NCBI GenBank assembly: GCA_017302795.1
Contig: JAFLCB010000001.1
Span: 124,001 to 188,000 of the forward strand
Length of the DNA: 64,000 nt
Direction: 5' to 3'
Origin: Deltaproteobacteria bacterium
GTDB taxonomy: Bacteria; Bdellovibrionota; Bdellovibrionia; Bdellovibrionales; JAMPXM01
Part shown: in pieces, positions 47,813 through 57,735 of the stretch
How positions within the stretch are numbered: the stretch's first letter is position 1
Layout of the letters: every line of letters begins with the position of its first letter
Translations under genes and position numbers: made by a program
Notes under the pieces: generated by a model
The model's input: only the letters and a program-made list of their open reading frames with translations
Told to the model about the DNA's origin: nothing
The model's database searches: none

Positions 47813-48922
47813 GTGAAGAAGTCACTCTTGGTAGGCGCAATTTTAGGTTTAGTCCTTACTCTGGGGATCGCAGTGTATCTTCGCGATCAAAACCTTTTAA
47901 GTACCGGATCCCCTGGAAGTGGCGATTCTGGCGGCAAATCACCGAAGGATCCGGTAGATGCGCCTCTTGTCACTGTCCTAAATGGCTTTTTACTGAACTT
48001 TAAAGGCGCTGACGACCTCATGGCGCACCGCAAGGCCGCAATTCAACCTTTTATTACAACCGCCGATTGGGAAAAAACTATGAGCGCCCACGGCCTTCCG
48101 GTGAACCAACGAACGACTTCTCAATGTCTGACTTCCACGCTCGCGCAAGCTGTGACTGTCCGCCCCGATCAGGTCGAGCCGATCTTAAGCGGCCGTCAGA
48201 ACGTGCTGTTTATTTCGAATGACGTACCCCGATGTTTTTCGACCCAGAGTAAAGTTTTTTTGGTGGTTGATGAAGCCATCGACGCAAAGTCGGCCTACGC
48301 CATTCCCGCTTCCGTCACTATTGAAAACTTCATCGAAGTATCAATTCTAAGCCTCAAGCCGGAAGTTCTGTGGGCCATGCGCCTCTCGAGAGAAGACGTC
48401 CCCACCGCAGCGTTTGGCGACATTGAATACGTGAACCTCAGTACACCTATGACGATCATGCAGATTTCTGTAATTCCCGGAAAACCGGTGATCGATGGAA
48501 CGGTCATCCCTCCATTTATGGCTGGCGTTGAACCTTTAAAACCTTCGATGATCGCGTCCTACATGCGGGCGTTGAGAGCAACTAACTCATACAAACCTTT
48601 TTTCGTAGACGCTCGAGACCCCAGAACAAAATCTAGCGGCCTGTATCCCGGGGCTATCAACTCGCCTTTTCTTTATACCAACGTTAACCAGCTTCGGTTC
48701 TTCTTAGATATGCCAGTCTCGCTGATCGCCGGTGCTCAGTTCGACGTCAGTAATTTACCAACAGATATCGTGACCCCACTTATCATCTTCGGTAACGATT
48801 CCAGAGACGCCAGTGCAGTTTGGGTAGCGCGAAACCTTCGGCTTCGCGGTTATCGCACGCTCTTTTTTGTAGACGGCGGATACGAAGCACTCAAGAAAGA
48901 AGCCCCGCAAATTATCTTTTAG
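47813..48922 (+). CDS. Exported protein with inactive rhodanese-like domain
   Basis: 369 residues from GTG 47813. N-terminal membrane anchor (residues 5-23), then a Gly/Ser/Pro linker and a roughly 200-residue region of unknown fold. The last 110 residues look like rhodanese: FVDARDPRTKSSGLYPGAINSP, then TPLIIFGNDSRDASAVWVARNLRLRGY, then FFVDGGYEAL. The catalytic cysteine, which should follow IIF, is absent (Gly-Asn). So it should bind rather than transfer sulfur. Its stop overlaps the convergent dacB-like gene by 11 bases. Confidence 0.75.
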   Translation: MKKSLLVGAILGLVLTLGIAVYLRDQNLLSTGSPGSGDSGGKSPKDPVDAPLVTVLNGFLLNFKGADDLMAHRKAAIQPFITTADWEKTMSAHGLPVNQRTTSQCLTSTLAQAVTVRPDQVEPILSGRQNVLFISNDVPRCFSTQSKVFLVVDEAIDAKSAYAIPASVTIENFIEVSILSLKPEVLWAMRLSREDVPTAAFGDIEYVNLSTPMTIMQISVIPGKPVIDGTVIPPFMAGVEPLKPSMIASYMRALRATNSYKPFFVDARDPRTKSSGLYPGAINSPFLYTNVNQLRFFLDMPVSLIAGAQFDVSNLPTDIVTPLIIFGNDSRDASAVWVARNLRLRGYRTLFFVDGGYEALKKEAPQIIF

Positions 48923-50690
48923 CGAATTCCCGCCGCTCGACAGATTCGGCGATCTTTACAACTAAGGCATCTTGAAATTTTCTAACCTTTTCGCGATTGC
49001 GGACGTTGGTCGAAGTTAGTATCACGAACGGGATATACTCAGTTTGTCCCCCAACCTTCTTCGGAACATAGCCGACCAGCTGGTAGGCGCCCGACAGAGT
49101 CCCGGTTTTTCCCCGCACTTTTCCCGTAGCCGCGGTCTTATTCATGCGATTTGCCAATGTTCCGTCTTCGCCGGCCGTCGGAAGTGATTCCCAAAAAGCT
49201 GGAAACATTTTTTCTTTTGGCAGCTGTCGTAATACCGCCAAGAAAGCGCGAGGAGTTGCGGCGTTGCCGTTCGAAAGCCCCGCCCCATCCAAAAAGCGCA
49301 GTTCGTTCGCAAACTCCGGAACACTTTCACGATGCAGCCATTCCGCAACCGTCTCTTTGATAATATTTTGCCCAGAAGAAAGTGCATCCTCTCCTGGCGA
49401 CTTAGAACGTATTCCAACTGCTTTAAACAGAGCATCAGCTAAAAAATTATCGCTCGGCTTATTTGTGGCCTCTACCAGCGCAGCAAGATTCGCTGATTCA
49501 AAAACTAAACTATTTCCGGTATTTGAATTCATCAGTGCCGCCGCGGTCGCGCGGTCGGCCGAGGACTCAGGATATTGAACTGAAAAGTCAGAGACCTTCA
49601 CCTGCTTTGCGCGCAGAGCCTTGGCAAACTCGTCGGCGTACCAGCCGGCGGCATTACCAATTGGAAGCTTCCAAGAAAGTGCACGAGGACTTTTGGCAAT
49701 GTAAGTGCCTTTCAAGCGGAACCCTTCTAGGACGCGGGTTCCTGAAAGCAAAACTTCTATCCCCAAAGAATTTTTTGCGCCTGGCTCCGTGCCCAAGTCA
49801 CCCTTTAGAAAATCTTCGATACTCGGAGATTCCCATTTGAAGCCACTAGTCGAATGAATTTTCGTGAGTGCGCAATTCCATTGATAATTGAAACTTGATG
49901 CTAAAGAGCCATAGCACTCACGCATGTCGATAGTAGGGATTCCCTCCGCATAGCGCACGTGATCCAATCTTCGGTCAGAAGATAGCAAAATCATCGGTCC
50001 ACGAACTTCGGTCACCCCCTTTGCCTTTACGGCTGACGCCATCTCCGTCATTCGATGAGGTGCACCTGCATCGTAAGAGTCAATTTCGACGGTCGGATCA
50101 CCATCAGAAAAAATGACCATTCCAGAGGCTACTGAGCCTTGCTGCGCAAAAGTGATAACAGTTCTAAATCGAAAATCGTCGCCCAATCGTTTCAACGCAA
50201 CAGCAGTTGTAATGACCTTCGTAATCGAGGCCGGAACAAATCGCTGAGTGTCGTTTTGAACTCGCGCGCTTGGCGCGTCGGAAGTCAGGCCTACCGAAAT
50301 ATCTTTTGATTTCGTTAAAATATACTCGACGTTGAAAGGTGTCGGCTTTGGTTTTGGTTTAGGTTTAGGTTTTTCTTCTGGCGAACTGCCAGGAGCGCTC
50401 CCCTGTGAGACCTTCGTGGCGTCTGACGTGCCGTCTGACTGAATGTCGTTCGGTTTCGCATCGCCCTCGGAATCTTGACTGGTCGGTTGTGCGACGATCG
50501 CGAGTTGATCTGATCCCAAATATATCTGCGAGGCCTCTACCAATTCCCGATCAGCAAGCGGATTGCCGCTGCCCGTAGATTGCGGCGCACACGCAGCCGA
50601 CGATAAACAAACTACGACACCGAGGGTGAAACGCGCTGTTGTATCACTTGAAAAGAAACGAAATAAACCACCGTCAACTATGATCCGCAT
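48912..50690 (-). CDS. dacB: D-alanyl-D-alanine carboxypeptidase/endopeptidase, PBP4-type lipoprotein
   Basis: 592 residues. A signal peptide with lipobox CLSSAAC (Cys34) makes it a lipoprotein, unusual for DacB. A low-complexity linker holds a Lys-Pro run (about residues 105-115) that could span peptidoglycan. The penicillin-binding domain shows SITK (SxxK, the nucleophile), SDN and GKTGTLSG (KTG). It trims peptidoglycan cross-links in the periplasm. Bdellovibrio relatives use DacB-type enzymes to round prey; that role is an inference. Confidence 0.9.
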   Translation of the reverse strand: MRIIVDGGLFRFFSSDTTARFTLGVVVCLSSAACAPQSTGSGNPLADRELVEASQIYLGSDQLAIVAQPTSQDSEGDAKPNDIQSDGTSDATKVSQGSAPGSSPEEKPKPKPKPKPTPFNVEYILTKSKDISVGLTSDAPSARVQNDTQRFVPASITKVITTAVALKRLGDDFRFRTVITFAQQGSVASGMVIFSDGDPTVEIDSYDAGAPHRMTEMASAVKAKGVTEVRGPMILLSSDRRLDHVRYAEGIPTIDMRECYGSLASSFNYQWNCALTKIHSTSGFKWESPSIEDFLKGDLGTEPGAKNSLGIEVLLSGTRVLEGFRLKGTYIAKSPRALSWKLPIGNAAGWYADEFAKALRAKQVKVSDFSVQYPESSADRATAAALMNSNTGNSLVFESANLAALVEATNKPSDNFLADALFKAVGIRSKSPGEDALSSGQNIIKETVAEWLHRESVPEFANELRFLDGAGLSNGNAATPRAFLAVLRQLPKEKMFPAFWESLPTAGEDGTLANRMNKTAATGKVRGKTGTLSGAYQLVGYVPKKVGGQTEYIPFVILTSTNVRNREKVRKFQDALVVKIAESVERREFAKR

Positions 50691-50865: not shown

Positions 50866-51999
50866 TCAAGATCCCGTACGCGTGCAAATGATTCGCGTGA
50901 AGGTCGAGCCGTTGCCGACAGAGGTCCCATAGGTCCCGCCCCCATCAGGCACCGGTACACCCAACATCCAGTTATTGTTCGTACTGCCAAACGGAGAGGA
51001 GCTTGGACGGTCAGTACACATATGCTGAACTCGCAAAGTCACGGCTGCGTTCGTACGGAACGAAACGTCCACAACGCTCACGACAGACCCACCACCCGAA
51101 ACAGAGGCTAAGGAAATTCCTGATTGTGCATTGATGACTCCGCAACCCGCACCCGCCGTGTCACACAAGCGAATGCGGTTACCGCCGTTTTTGAAACCAG
51201 GAACCCCAGCCCGGCAGTTATAGGCACCAGCTGGCAACGTAAAGGTATCGTTGGCAGTGTCGAGAGTTGCGCCAACGACCGCGGTGTCTATAAGTTCGCT
51301 AAGCTGCCTCGTATACCAAACCGGGTCCGTACCATCGAAGCATGCACCGACCTCCTCAACTGCAGCCGCGGTGGCCCCAAACGTTATGTGCCGAATAACA
51401 ATTGTTTCGTTTCTGATAGCCAGAGCTCCACGACGGAAATCAAAACTATACGTCGTCGGATTGAATCCTCCACCGACCGTGACCTTCGGACCAGCGGCAA
51501 ACACAAAATCGCCTCGAATTCTAACGTCCGGAGTTTTACAGTTTGCAGAACCTGTGCAAGTCGCTTCCCAAGTCACATTCCAGCGAAACGGACACGTCGG
51601 GTCTGGAGTAGCTGTTGAAAAAGTATTACAAGGCTGACCGTCGAACCGAAATCCTGCAGTAGCAGTTGCGGCAGGGTAAACCGACACCGGCCCCGCTTGA
51701 ACGATGTTAAAGGCTGATGAAAAACCACTTGCGCAGTTTGCGGTTGCGGCTCGCAAACAGTCCAAGAAAGCATCGTTCGACGCATCGTTGATTGTGGCAG
51801 TCCAATGGGCCGGAGAATTTAAAGTTTCTATGATACGCGCACGAATGGAATTTAAATTTCCGACTTGGGATGTTTTCTGTTGAGCAGAGAACATGTCGCT
51901 GATCATCGTTCCGACCCCGAGAGCAATGATCGAAACAATGGCTGCAACGATAATGACTTCGATCAACCCGAAGCCGCGTTCGTTTTTTATGACTTTCAT
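50866..51999 (-). CDS. Type IV prepilin-like protein
   Basis: 377 residues. Class III signal: MKVIKNERG before F10, with Glu14 at position 5 of the mature chain and a hydrophobic helix to about residue 31, the site of a prepilin peptidase and N-methylation. The long C-terminal domain is Thr/Ala/Gly-rich with about 12 cysteines, many likely disulfide-bonded, unlike a major pilin. It is therefore a minor pilin, tip adhesin or pseudopilin. AAGGGGA ribosome site. No other pilus genes are near. Confidence 0.88.
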   Translation of the reverse strand: MKVIKNERGFGLIEVIIVAAIVSIIALGVGTMISDMFSAQQKTSQVGNLNSIRARIIETLNSPAHWTATINDASNDAFLDCLRAATANCASGFSSAFNIVQAGPVSVYPAATATAGFRFDGQPCNTFSTATPDPTCPFRWNVTWEATCTGSANCKTPDVRIRGDFVFAAGPKVTVGGGFNPTTYSFDFRRGALAIRNETIVIRHITFGATAAAVEEVGACFDGTDPVWYTRQLSELIDTAVVGATLDTANDTFTLPAGAYNCRAGVPGFKNGGNRIRLCDTAGAGCGVINAQSGISLASVSGGGSVVSVVDVSFRTNAAVTLRVQHMCTDRPSSSPFGSTNNNWMLGVPVPDGGGTYGTSVGNGSTFTRIICTRTGS

Positions 52000-52367: not shown

Positions 52368-54059
52368 GTGTGGCGCTTGCAACCACCAGTAGCTATGGAC
52401 ACAATTTCTAGGCCTGAGCTCTACTGTCGAACATTGGTCGGGACAGCACCCCATTTGTGCGTGATGACCCTCTTTGCAGGTCTATTTCAGTTGGGTGCTT
52501 TGCCCGCGCTTGCATCGGAATCGATTTCACTTGGCGCCGATGTGAAAGTTCACACACTTACGCCAACCGGGCAGACCGAACTCTGTATCCTACCAAAACA
52601 CTATTTGAACTACGACGGTCAAGACCAAGATCGAAAGGAAGAAGCCGAACTCTGTCGGCTATCGCCTTACTTGAACCAAGAAATAAAACTGGAATTTACA
52701 TCTTCATCAAAGTTAACATCGAAGCTCTTTAAAAAAACCGACACCAAAGATGTCATCCTCTGCCCGAAGCTAAATAGCACTGTTCCTGGCACTAATTTTA
52801 TTGACGTTCCGAAAGGCTGGAGCGCCGAAAAGGCGATTGCGGAATTCTGTATCGAGAAGCTGGAAGTTCCAATTGCGATCGCCGACAAATATTCGATTGA
52901 AGCGCGCCTGAAGAGCTGGTTCGCAGACGCATCGGCATCTTCTGTCTTGGCCTATTACCATCTGTCTCGAATTTTAGATGTAGGCCGCGTGCCACCTGCG
53001 GTCTACAGAACACTTGAGCGAACGTCACACGAACCAGTAATAAAAAGAGCCAACGAACTCTTAAAAGGTTCAACCGAGCACATCGCCAACAACTGGCGCG
53101 CCCTAGGAGACGCAAGTAAAAATGCGGCTCGCGGAAAACCAAGTCTTAAGATTTATACGCCAGACGGAAAAATGCTTTACGGCGCGCTATCAAAAAATGC
53201 CAAGGGCGAAGAAAAGTACACCGAAGTTAGTGGTGTCGGAGATTTTGTGTCTCGTTACCCACGATTTCTCGCACAGCCACCGTTTCAAAAAGTGGCTGAT
53301 CCATTAGGTGTAGAACTGCTTGCAAAATCCAATCGAATCGAAACTCTTGCCCCTATGATCATCCAGATGCGCGACGTTTCGGGAATGGTTCTGCTTGACT
53401 CGTTGCTTTCGCAGGACGATCGCATTGGCAACATTCATTACAAGATTGAGGTCGTTGAAAATACTCAATCCGGAGCGCATAGCCGTGAACTAACTAAAAT
53501 AGAAAAAGAAGCTGCAAAAGAGGAGCTCAACAAAGCACGCGCACACCTTCTAGATAAAGCCCGAATCGCCAGTGAACAGGGCAATGCAAAACTCGCTGCC
53601 AACTTCCGAGGTCAGTCCGAAAAAATCAAACTCACGGAACGCCTCGTTCAAAAAGCACTCAAGTCCCTTTACCCTGGGGAAACGAAAATTCTCGCGAAAG
53701 TGATGATCCTTAAAGACAATGATTGCGGCGTCGACACGGATCCTCGACGACGGCAAAATCTGATGCGGCGATATGGAGCACTCGAACGCTTGCGACACAT
53801 GGATCCTGAAACCTATCGACGTTTTCTTCAACTGGCAGACGACATTTTAACAGACCGATTTAGGCCTTTTGCTATCAATACACTTTTGTACCGCGAACAG
53901 GACTACGAGGGAACCAAAGTCAGCCTGAAGGAAAACGCACGCCACGCTCTCAACATTTTAAAAGATGCCTGCCGTCGCGGCGACCTCAAGCTAGATCTCA
54001 CTATGAAGTTTGACGATCGAGGTCGTTTTGTTCCCGAACCACACCCTGGCTGCGAATAA
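52368..54059 (+). CDS. Secreted FAM20/PI4K-like putative kinase
   Basis: 563 residues from GTG 52368 (ATG 52395 and TTG 52377 are alternatives). Hydrophobic signal ending near ALASES at about residue 50. Three features of the atypical FAM20C/phosphatidylinositol-kinase-type fold occur in order: a helix LAYYHLSRILDVGRVPP (about 193-211), a catalytic loop-like LLSQDDRIGN (about 346-355), and an acidic metal-binding motif LKDNDCGVD (about 448-456). The insert between the last two is about 90 residues and coiled. It would act in the periplasm or outside the cell. Kinase activity is a prediction from motifs. Confidence 0.6.
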   Translation: MWRLQPPVAMDTISRPELYCRTLVGTAPHLCVMTLFAGLFQLGALPALASESISLGADVKVHTLTPTGQTELCILPKHYLNYDGQDQDRKEEAELCRLSPYLNQEIKLEFTSSSKLTSKLFKKTDTKDVILCPKLNSTVPGTNFIDVPKGWSAEKAIAEFCIEKLEVPIAIADKYSIEARLKSWFADASASSVLAYYHLSRILDVGRVPPAVYRTLERTSHEPVIKRANELLKGSTEHIANNWRALGDASKNAARGKPSLKIYTPDGKMLYGALSKNAKGEEKYTEVSGVGDFVSRYPRFLAQPPFQKVADPLGVELLAKSNRIETLAPMIIQMRDVSGMVLLDSLLSQDDRIGNIHYKIEVVENTQSGAHSRELTKIEKEAAKEELNKARAHLLDKARIASEQGNAKLAANFRGQSEKIKLTERLVQKALKSLYPGETKILAKVMILKDNDCGVDTDPRRRQNLMRRYGALERLRHMDPETYRRFLQLADDILTDRFRPFAINTLLYREQDYEGTKVSLKENARHALNILKDACRRGDLKLDLTMKFDDRGRFVPEPHPGCE

Positions 54060-54901: not shown

Positions 54902-56938
54902 TTAGTAGCCGCGGAAGTTGCGGGGCTCTTCCTCGCTCGTCCATTGGCGAATCTGCGACATAATTTCATCTTGGTAAGTGTAGGCCGTCGCCCCGACGCC
55001 TGCCGCTGCGGCACCGCCAGCTGTGCTTAAGATGATCTTTCGATTCTTATCTTTGATCGATTTTAAATGCGCCAATTGCGGTTCATGATTCGGGAGAGTG
55101 AATTCTATCTCTAGCGATGGCACGGCCCGGCTAATCTGTTCTTTCAGATGAACAATACGGTTAATCATATGGTCGTACCGAACCAGCATCGATTGGTTGC
55201 GATCTTTAAAGTCATTTTCTCGGTCTTGCTCCCACCGAGTGCGGATAGAACCAGAATCCGAGGAAAGGTAACTCGCAAGTTTTCCCCGGCTCTGGCGAAG
55301 CGAATTTTCTTCTTTATCAAGGACGCCGACAAGCTTTGCGGTTTCACCCGGTGTTTTCTTTGCCGCCTTATAGGTGTCATTGGTTATGCCATCGACCAGA
55401 CTGGTCACACTTGCAATTTGACCTCGGTGGCTGTTTTCGACGGCTCGAGCTTTTTCCGCTTGCCCGACGATCCAGTCAACTTGACTCTTGTCATAGCTGG
55501 CGATTGAGGGTGAACCGTTTGATGCAGAAACGGCATACATACCCCGCGTTTGTGCCGCCGGAAGTGGTGGAAGATCGTCTATGTGATCACCTGGCTGAAC
55601 GCCACCAACAAGTACTTCTTCGTACCGAGCGCGAAGGCGATCGGGACGACTCATTGAGTAGTCTCTTGAATAGTAGTCGATGTAGTCTTCCTGCTCAGTA
55701 TAGTATTCGGTTGAGCCATTTGAATTCTGTCGCGACTTTGTAACAGTACGAGTTTTTGGCTCTGCATATTGGACTGTCACCGTCCATTCGGTCTGAACAT
55801 CGTATTCAGATTTTGCTGGTGAACGTTGCTCGGTGATGCCAAGGTAAGACGCGCGACGTTCGGGCGTTTCGCGGCGATATTGCGGATTGCGAATCTGCAA
55901 ATGAACATCGTGCTTCTCGGTTACGGGCATTCCCGTTGTTTCCTTGTTTTTGCGATTCCAAGCACCTCCGATGACGCGATCGATAGTGTCCATCTCGCCT
56001 TCCGCAGATAAGTTGAGCTCTGCTTCATTTTGCTTGGCGCCCAAGGCTTTGGCGCGCTTTGCCAAATCGCGAATTCGAATGTCAGCTCGCGGAATCGGAC
56101 TATTGGCTGCGATTTCGCGACCATAAAGCTGACTGATCATGCCGCGTACTTCACTCAGATCGGCGGCGGTACCCGAAGCGAGATTCTGAAGTTCTTTGAT
56201 CTCGGGATTCGATAGCTCCAGTGACTGAGTGTATTTTGGCAGAGCTTCAAGCGCCGGCTGATCGGTGAGGTACATCTTCTGGAGCTGGCGCCGAAAGGAA
56301 TCATTGACCTCGATAATGGCCCTAACTTTGTCGTAATGCGGCGAGAAAAAACGCACAACAGGGTCGTACCACTTCGAGTTCGGGTACTTCGCATTTTTAT
56401 CGTGTTCAGTAATGGCTCGCAGTAGAACTTCCACGTCGGTTCTGCCGAGTGCCTTTTCGCTAAGTTGCGCCGCATAGGCTGGGTCACCTGAATAGCCAAG
56501 TTTCGCATCGTGGACTTGCATAGCCTGGCGAATCGCAAAACCGCGATCGGCTACATTACCAAAGAAGGGTTCCGTGCCGAGTTCGTCGATCATATGCTTA
56601 AGTTCGTCGAGCATTTTATCCTCTTTAGGAGTGGCTTTGAGGATTCCAGACTTGACGTTAAAATAGAAATTAATGAATTCTTCTTTCGTCCTGCCAGAAA
56701 AAATTTTTTCGAGGGCTTCATTCGGCGTCGCTTCAATCGCGACACGAGCGCGTCCCCAATAAAAGAAATCGGTTTCTTTTTGCAGGGCGGCCATCACCTT
56801 TTCCGAGTGCGCGAATAACTTCTGATAGATGACAGCGCAATCGAGCGGCTCTTTCGCGCTGGCCACGATCACAAAGACGCATGCCAACGAAAACACGAAT
56901 GCGACAATCGATGAATTTAAAACGAAACGATTTCTCAT
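54902..56938 (-). CDS. Large exported protein of unknown function
   Basis: 678 residues from ATG 56938; the open frame continues to 57010, where it overlaps the upstream gene, but the signal peptide (RNRFVLNSSIVAFVFSLACVF) begins at 56938. Residues about 35-250 are helical and charged; the middle has acidic/Tyr-rich stretches (STEYYTEQEDYIDYYSRDYS) and a QNSNGS linker; a C-terminal Ala/Gly helix (STAGGAAAAGVGATAYTY) may insert into a membrane, followed by a short acidic tail. No family recognised. It is co-transcribed with the zincin-like gene. Confidence 0.7.
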   Translation of the reverse strand: MRNRFVLNSSIVAFVFSLACVFVIVASAKEPLDCAVIYQKLFAHSEKVMAALQKETDFFYWGRARVAIEATPNEALEKIFSGRTKEEFINFYFNVKSGILKATPKEDKMLDELKHMIDELGTEPFFGNVADRGFAIRQAMQVHDAKLGYSGDPAYAAQLSEKALGRTDVEVLLRAITEHDKNAKYPNSKWYDPVVRFFSPHYDKVRAIIEVNDSFRRQLQKMYLTDQPALEALPKYTQSLELSNPEIKELQNLASGTAADLSEVRGMISQLYGREIAANSPIPRADIRIRDLAKRAKALGAKQNEAELNLSAEGEMDTIDRVIGGAWNRKNKETTGMPVTEKHDVHLQIRNPQYRRETPERRASYLGITEQRSPAKSEYDVQTEWTVTVQYAEPKTRTVTKSRQNSNGSTEYYTEQEDYIDYYSRDYSMSRPDRLRARYEEVLVGGVQPGDHIDDLPPLPAAQTRGMYAVSASNGSPSIASYDKSQVDWIVGQAEKARAVENSHRGQIASVTSLVDGITNDTYKAAKKTPGETAKLVGVLDKEENSLRQSRGKLASYLSSDSGSIRTRWEQDRENDFKDRNQSMLVRYDHMINRIVHLKEQISRAVPSLEIEFTLPNHEPQLAHLKSIKDKNRKIILSTAGGAAAAGVGATAYTYQDEIMSQIRQWTSEEEPRNFRGY

Positions 56939-57006
56939 CACTCTCGTTATCGGAAATAGGAGGAATGAATTGAGCCGACCAAAGTCCTGAATCGCCCGGA
57001 CTGTTT

Positions 57007-57735
57007 TCAATCGTAGCGAAGAATTTGACGAACACGGCTCTCAAGTTCGTCACGGATAAGGCGGTAAGCGTCAATTTGTTCTTTCAGTGCGGCATCCTGA
57101 CAAACGGTCAAATTCCAGATTATTGGGTTGCCCTTTGCATCTAAGGGACGAACTCCACGCCATTTTGTGCCGATTTCTTCAACGACCTGAGCGATTTTCA
57201 GCTTTTGCACTTCAAGGGCTTTCAGATCGACGCGAGGATAGTCGTCCATAAATCCTCCGACGGCACCGCTGATAGAATCAAAGTCTGGAAAATCTGGTCG
57301 TATCAAGTTCCAGATTCGAATTTCTTTTAAACTGTCTTCCTCATCGAATTCGCGAGACGGCACGGCAGGAAGCCCCAGACTCCGTTTGGTATCGTCATTG
57401 GCCATGACCTCGATCATCGCTCCGAAATCTCGCGGTTCACCACTCGGTCCGGTACATTGAACACCTGCTGCGGCGAGAAACGATTTTGTGTTCTGCACTC
57501 CTTCCAGAAGACTTTGAATTCGCTCTTCGCCGAAGACACGTTTCTTGAGTGCTTCTAGCACTTTCATACGGGTGACCGCAGGACTTTGAATGGCTGCTTC
57601 GACCACGTACGACGACACGTAATACTTCTGCAAGTACTCTGCATCTCGTTCATCTAAACCGAGCAGATGAGCCGTCTCATGCACGAGCAGCCCATTCACT
57701 TCGAGAGGAAGCTCTCTTGGCGTCAATCGCCTCAA
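57007..57735 (-). pseudogene. N-terminally truncated zincin-like protein
   Basis: 242 residues from TTG 57735. An HExxH motif (His19-Glu-Thr-Ala-His23) is followed by LLGLDE, similar to zinc peptidases, and then about 200 helical/charged residues. HExxH so close to the N-terminus, with no signal peptide and only an ATT/TTG-initiated open frame upstream to a TAG, suggests that an N-terminal export and propeptide part has been lost. The 3' end overlaps the next gene's open frame. It could still be an active cytoplasmic protein, hence the caution. Confidence 0.55.

Follow-up and report, generated by a model that had tools for sequence, protein, structure and literature searches.

An exported protein family of Bdellovibrio and its relatives with a predicted FAM20-like kinase fold

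In a 64,000-nt stretch of genomic DNA from a member of the Bdellovibrionota (hereafter, the window), one gene encodes a protein that is probably an active, exported phosphotransferase with an atypical kinase fold of the FAM20 type, whose substrate would be part of the cell envelope or of prey. The family to which it belongs, in Bdellovibrio and its relatives, is undescribed and is represented neither by a family model nor by a solved sequence. Searches with Pfam, NCBIfam, PHROGs and PADLOC returned nothing meaningful for the window protein, which has no family match in Pfam or NCBIfam; no relatives of it turned up among viral contigs or viral structures; literature searches found no paper describing a FAM20-like bacterial family; and no kinase terms were found in a proteome paper on Bdellovibrio predation (PMC12546842). 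The fold class is already known. Exported bacterial proteins that combine this fold with an invariant active site and phosphatase neighbours would extend phosphorylation outside the cytoplasm to bacteria, would inform ideas on how the FAM20 kinases arose, and would offer a candidate means by which Bdellovibrio alters itself or its prey.

The window gene and its conserved residues

The open reading frame begins with GTG and spans 563 codons; an alternative start, the ATG at 52395, would give a protein of 554 aa, and the true start is uncertain because a clear ribosome-binding site was not seen. Its parts are as follows.

52368..54059, + strand: whole open reading frame, predicted exported FAM20-like kinase-fold protein (family profile E about 1e-139)
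52395..52514, + strand: signal-peptide-like N-terminus, residues 10–49 (sequence inspection)
52911..52913, + strand: codon of Lys182, the invariant Lys of the FKQ strand and putative ATP-binding β3 Lys (identical in 60/60)
52947..53009, + strand: LAYYHLSRILDVGRVPPAVYR, a helix and strand segment, the part most like FAM20A and FAM20C (PDB matches of a 60-residue segment)
53397..53432, + strand: D(344)SLLSQDD(351)RIGN(355), the catalytic-loop motif (Asp344, Gln349, Asp351, Arg352 and Asn355 identical in 60/60)
53475..53687, + strand: insertion rich in Lys and Glu and predicted to be helical, separating the catalytic loop from the DND strand (alignments; poor model with a helical hairpin)
53715..53723, + strand: D450 N451 D452, putative metal-binding motif (identical in 60/60)

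Several lines of evidence bear on the kinase assignment. First, an earlier note made from the sequence alone had picked out three kinase-like motifs in order and with plausible spacing, and these were recovered in a real open reading frame, LAYYHLSRILDVGRVPP at residues 194–210, QDDRIGN at 349–355 and LKDNDCGVD at 448–456. An automatic alignment was made of 60 divergent family members, some of which are only about 25% identical to the window protein. The residues identical in all 60 are Lys182, Asp344, Gln349, Asp351, Arg352, Asn355, Asp450, Asn451, Asp452 and Asp543 (window open reading frame numbering), the Asn of the very divergent member L095 being placed by alignment only. Because their key residues are identical in 60/60 homologs at such divergence, the catalytic motifs are not a chance occurrence. 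Codon-position differences from a same-genus ortholog with 52% identity (0.38/0.27/0.66) are as expected under purifying selection.

Export, the other property claimed in the earlier note, is likewise supported by sequence features. The hydrophobic N-terminal stretch of the window protein runs into ...LGALPALA|SES (residues 34–49), in which ALA|SES resembles a cleavage site, and 59 of the 60 family members have a signal-like N-terminus as scored by a simple home-made hydrophobicity rule rather than SignalP; the exception, L036, has one by eye. Several Cys residues are conserved in the main branch of the family, which would fit an exported protein with disulfides.

The same alignment gives grounds for an alternative, which we consider rather unlikely, that the protein is an exported pseudokinase with a role in nucleotide binding or in the regulation of a partner kinase, or that it catalyses another transfer such as AMPylation or glutamylation. 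The loop after Lys182 is short, usually reading SCSYTPS in the family and ADASASS in the window copy, and no acidic residue between Lys182 and the helix is conserved among the 60 members. In FAM20C, Glu306 of the Kβ3–Kα3 loop is essential for catalysis (PMC5865150). An acid from elsewhere could conceivably stand in for it, a candidate being Glu281, which is conserved in 52/60 members. The DRxGN motif also places its Asn at +4, compared with +5 in the DRHxxN motif of other PI4K/HipA-like proteins of the same phylum, and FAM20A, which regulates FAM20C, offers a precedent for a pseudokinase in such a role. Against this, the Lys, Asp, Arg, Asn and DND residues are invariant in 60/60 members, whereas in pseudokinase families some members have usually lost such residues. 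We favour an active enzyme because the catalytic set is strictly conserved.

Predicted fold and sequence link to FAM20

Second, structure prediction, which the earlier note had proposed as a check, gave a kinase fold for a homolog and a model too poor to interpret for the window protein. From a 7-row alignment, the window protein was modelled with a pLDDT of 54.7, and a Foldseek search with this model placed DrFam20C1 at rank 3 (E 1.4), the search being filled by matches to the helical insertion, which is long in the window copy and in L033. A shorter homolog with about 30% identity, L036, modelled from the same sequences, reached a pLDDT of 81.3 and a pTM of 0.85. With the L036 model, the top 16 chains in a Foldseek search of the PDB are all FAM20 (E 7.9e-7 to 1.7e-4); PI3K and HipA come next. 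VIA-align superposed the model on DrFam20C1 with Z 16.7 and an rmsd of 3.9 over 282 aligned residues; the Z-scores are 16.6 for hydra Fam20, 15.9 for human FAM20C and 13.5 for FAM20A, compared with 11.9–14.7 for PI4KII, 10.7 for CtkA, 9.8 for CotH and about 8–9 for HipA. The model has a strand carrying the conserved Lys (99–104, L036 numbering), a helix (112–124), a long helix (249–271) followed by Asp275, and a strand (318–325) followed by Asp327, an order that agrees with a kinase. Because the window protein's own model is poor, we take its fold from L036 and predict that of a FAM20-like kinase. The FAM20/PI4K type named in the earlier note is thus supported, with L036 standing in for the window protein, and FAM20 comes first, PI4KII second, and HipA and CotH lower.

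Third, a 60-residue segment taken from around LAYYHLSRILDVGRVPP in the window protein has exactly four PDB matches at E up to 10, and all are FAM20: FAM20A (0.013 and 0.014), FAM20C (0.067) and DrFam20C1 (0.12). Searched whole against the PDB, the window protein matches FAM20A and FAM20C with E near 1, and these matches are mixed with unrelated ones. This sequence link of the helix segment to FAM20 is suggestive, not significant by itself, and agrees with the independent fold match. Neither the whole-family profile nor a profile of the catalytic segment alone finds a kinase among PDB sequences at E up to 10, nor does phmmer with L036 against the PDB; PF06702 matches neither the window protein nor 33 relatives, and its cut-off was reached in 0 of 192 genomes of the phylum. 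Weak matches to Dehydratase_SU and AP-3 were set aside, as they fall mainly on the Lys/Glu-rich insertion.

That the kinase likeness is a chance motif match on some other fold might be argued from the lack of any significant family match by sequence and from the low-confidence model of the window protein. We strongly disfavour this reading and regard it as highly improbable, given the confident L036 model, with its matches to FAM20, PI4K, HipA and CotH, the invariant catalytic-type residues, and a segment whose matches in the PDB are to FAM20 only.

Distribution, neighbours and proposed function

A family-profile search detected the FAM20-like family in 56 of 369 Bdellovibrionota genomes and in 26 of 182 genera. 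The titled loci of the family lie in four Bdellovibrionota metagenome-assembled genomes (MAGs) and in one Methylococcales MAG with two tandem copies; among 121 Methylococcales genomes, the only positive one is the MAG that led us there. In that MAG (L034:1434-4272), the two tandem, divergent members accompany a phosphatase-like gene, and the FAM20-like genes were probably acquired by horizontal transfer. Genome G073, which consists of one contig (3,782,950 bases) and which we take to be a Bdellovibrio bacteriovorus HD100-like genome, has family copies at 772252-773595 and at about 2414801-2416390. The window's own genome (4.23 Mb, 39 contigs) has one further copy, on contig C3, and in a tree of 47 family members the window copy groups with this paralog (support 100/99).

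Across 46 regions around family genes, three kinds of exported neighbour recur. A tyrosine-phosphatase-like protein with the motif HCWNGWHxSG is found in 15 regions, and a calcineurin-like metallophosphatase in 9 (PF00149, E 3e-14 and 3e-19 for the two tested). DUF2252 proteins are found in 4 regions and, in one other case, as a fusion with the FAM20-like protein; there are further cases outside those counts. Both phosphatase types adjoin the FAM20-like gene in L114 and L118, and in the HD100-like genome (L101) the metallophosphatase gene ends 21 bases ahead of the FAM20-like gene, both being on one strand. A single genus with a shared gene order accounts for many of the tyrosine-phosphatase-like pairs; other surroundings are seen in L034, L035, L073, L077/L096, L078 and L098. 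A phosphatase-like gene is present in 34 of the 56 genomes with the FAM20-like family and in 8 of the 313 without it (Fisher p 1e-25, uncorrected for ancestry). Such frequent exported neighbours of phosphatase type suggest phosphate signalling outside the bacterial cell.

The tyrosine-phosphatase-like family (L062:5945-6841, L034:768-1373, L035:981-1709 and 13 more) has invariant YRGG and HCxxGxH...G motifs, and the P-loop Arg of active tyrosine phosphatases is replaced by Ala or Ser. We found it in 42 of the 369 Bdellovibrionota genomes, in most cases together with the FAM20-like family. DUF2252 is a family of the protein-kinase clan (PMC9758233), and on the pseudokinase reading set out above the adjoining DUF2252 genes could be the true enzymes. 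In one case (L061:3702-6173), a FAM20-like protein and a DUF2252 domain are naturally fused in a single protein of 823 aa.

Neither a phosphatase gene nor a DUF2252 gene adjoins the window copy, and a phosphatase-like gene lies elsewhere in its genome (C1:347834-348352). On the other strand it is flanked by a gene for a small exported-looking protein and by a prepilin-like gene. The prepilin-like gene, just upstream (window 50866-51999, − strand), encodes a prepilin-type protein with an N-terminal methylation motif; beyond it (48912-50690, − strand) is a D-Ala-D-Ala carboxypeptidase of the S13 family, which has a KPKPKPKP linker and an N-terminus like that of a lipoprotein. At 54902-57735 (− strand), a 702-residue exported-looking protein without a family overlaps a 242-residue open reading frame with a short HETAH zincin-like motif.

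The own-genome paralog is part of a three-gene operon with overlapping ends, encoding a DUF2252 protein, a 396-residue protein without a family and the FAM20-like protein. This operon interrupts the division and cell wall cluster, with murD on one side of it and ftsW on the other (L060:3275-7358; C3, about 220270-224360), an arrangement also present in a second genome of the genus (L107:6632-10688); in a third genome (L109), the same three genes are together elsewhere. The position points to the cell envelope, and co-expression alone could explain it.

This location of the paralog, retained in the second genome, is one argument for a narrower form of our preferred explanation, in which the exported protein phosphorylates lipid or glycan of the envelope and is not a protein kinase. 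PI4KII, the second-best fold match, points in the same direction, as does FAM20B, which phosphorylates a xylose residue (PMC5865150). We hold this form to be possible, though not the one to be expected: no lipid- or sugar-binding feature was identified, FAM20C, which gives the best fold match, is a protein kinase, and the place between murD and ftsW may reflect co-expression only.

Taken as an active phosphotransferase, the protein would be exported to the periplasm or secreted, with removal of its signal peptide. Lys182 would hold the phosphates of ATP, Asp351 of the QxDRxGN loop would serve as the catalytic Asp, and Asn355 together with Asp450 and Asp452 of DND would hold metal. Phosphate would then pass to a protein, glycan or lipid belonging to the cell envelope or, in predators, to the prey, and the exported phosphatase-fold proteins encoded beside many relatives may reverse or tune this phosphorylation. 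We infer these features of the family, namely ATP use, catalysis, the roles of the residues and the partnership with phosphatases, and remain cautious about activity because the loop Glu is missing and ATP is normally absent from the periplasm. For predators, the prey cytosol is a possible source of ATP, a subject on which a literature search returned nothing useful. A more far-reaching version, in which predators and their kin have an exported phosphorylation system of FAM20-like kinase, exported phosphatases and kinase-like DUF2252 proteins that modifies the envelope or prey with prey ATP, and in which the bacterial family has a position close to the root of the animal secretory-pathway kinases, seems to us unlikely to hold.

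Comparison with known kinases

CotH shares with the window family a bacterial atypical kinase fold related to FAM20 and modifies surface proteins, but it acts in the spore coat and is not known to be exported via a signal peptide; neither the window protein nor its relatives match the CotH family. HipA and HipT are of the same atypical kinase fold class (Z about 8–10) and share the Asp...Asn and second Asp. HipA is cytoplasmic and is encoded in toxin–antitoxin operons, whereas we found no HipA family match and no recurrent HipB-like neighbour in the 46 regions. Type II PI4-kinases and other PI3/PI4 kinases (PF00454) provide the second-best fold match and share a DRxxN-like loop with an Asn, but their loop is DRHxxN with the Asn at +5; the FAM20-like family has it at +4 and is predicted to be exported, and PF00454 matches neither the window protein nor its relatives. 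Separately, Bdellovibrionota also encode proteins that resemble PI3/PI4 kinases, HipA_2 and Fam20C (L042:1129-1908, L043:1-2043, L039 and L048), with D(Y/H)LI.N.DRHxxN...IDH(G/S) motifs and, in L042, a signal-peptide-like start; they make up a second set of kinases that are possibly exported.

The closest likeness is to FAM20 (PF06702), whose members include the Golgi casein kinase FAM20C, FAM20B and the pseudokinase FAM20A. FAM20 is the best structural match and shares the secretory signal, the HLxRILxxxRVPPxVxR helix and following strand, and the β3 Lys. In FAM20C, Asp458, which we take to be the catalytic Asp, lies 7 residues after Asp451. The window protein reproduces this arrangement, with Asp344, Asp351 and Arg352 corresponding to Asp451, Asp458 and Arg459: an upstream Asp 7 residues before the catalytic-type Asp and an adjoining Arg. 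Asp451 and Arg459 are parts of the catalytic segment beside a cation-binding Asp in FAM20C (PMC7948968). The DND motif, present in 60/60 members, takes the place of DNG, with its metal-binding Asp, in FAM20C and of DFG in other kinases, a correspondence based on order and secondary structure rather than residue-level superposition. The catalytic loop of the bacterial family is a shorter DRxGN, compared with DRHHYE in FAM20C; the N-terminal part differs, and Glu306 has no conserved counterpart in the β3–helix loop. FAM20 forms a metazoan-specific cluster in a kinome survey (PMC9758233). We place the bacterial family beside FAM20 and not within it, because it has no PF06702 match, no conserved loop Glu, and a DRxGN motif with its Asn at +4.
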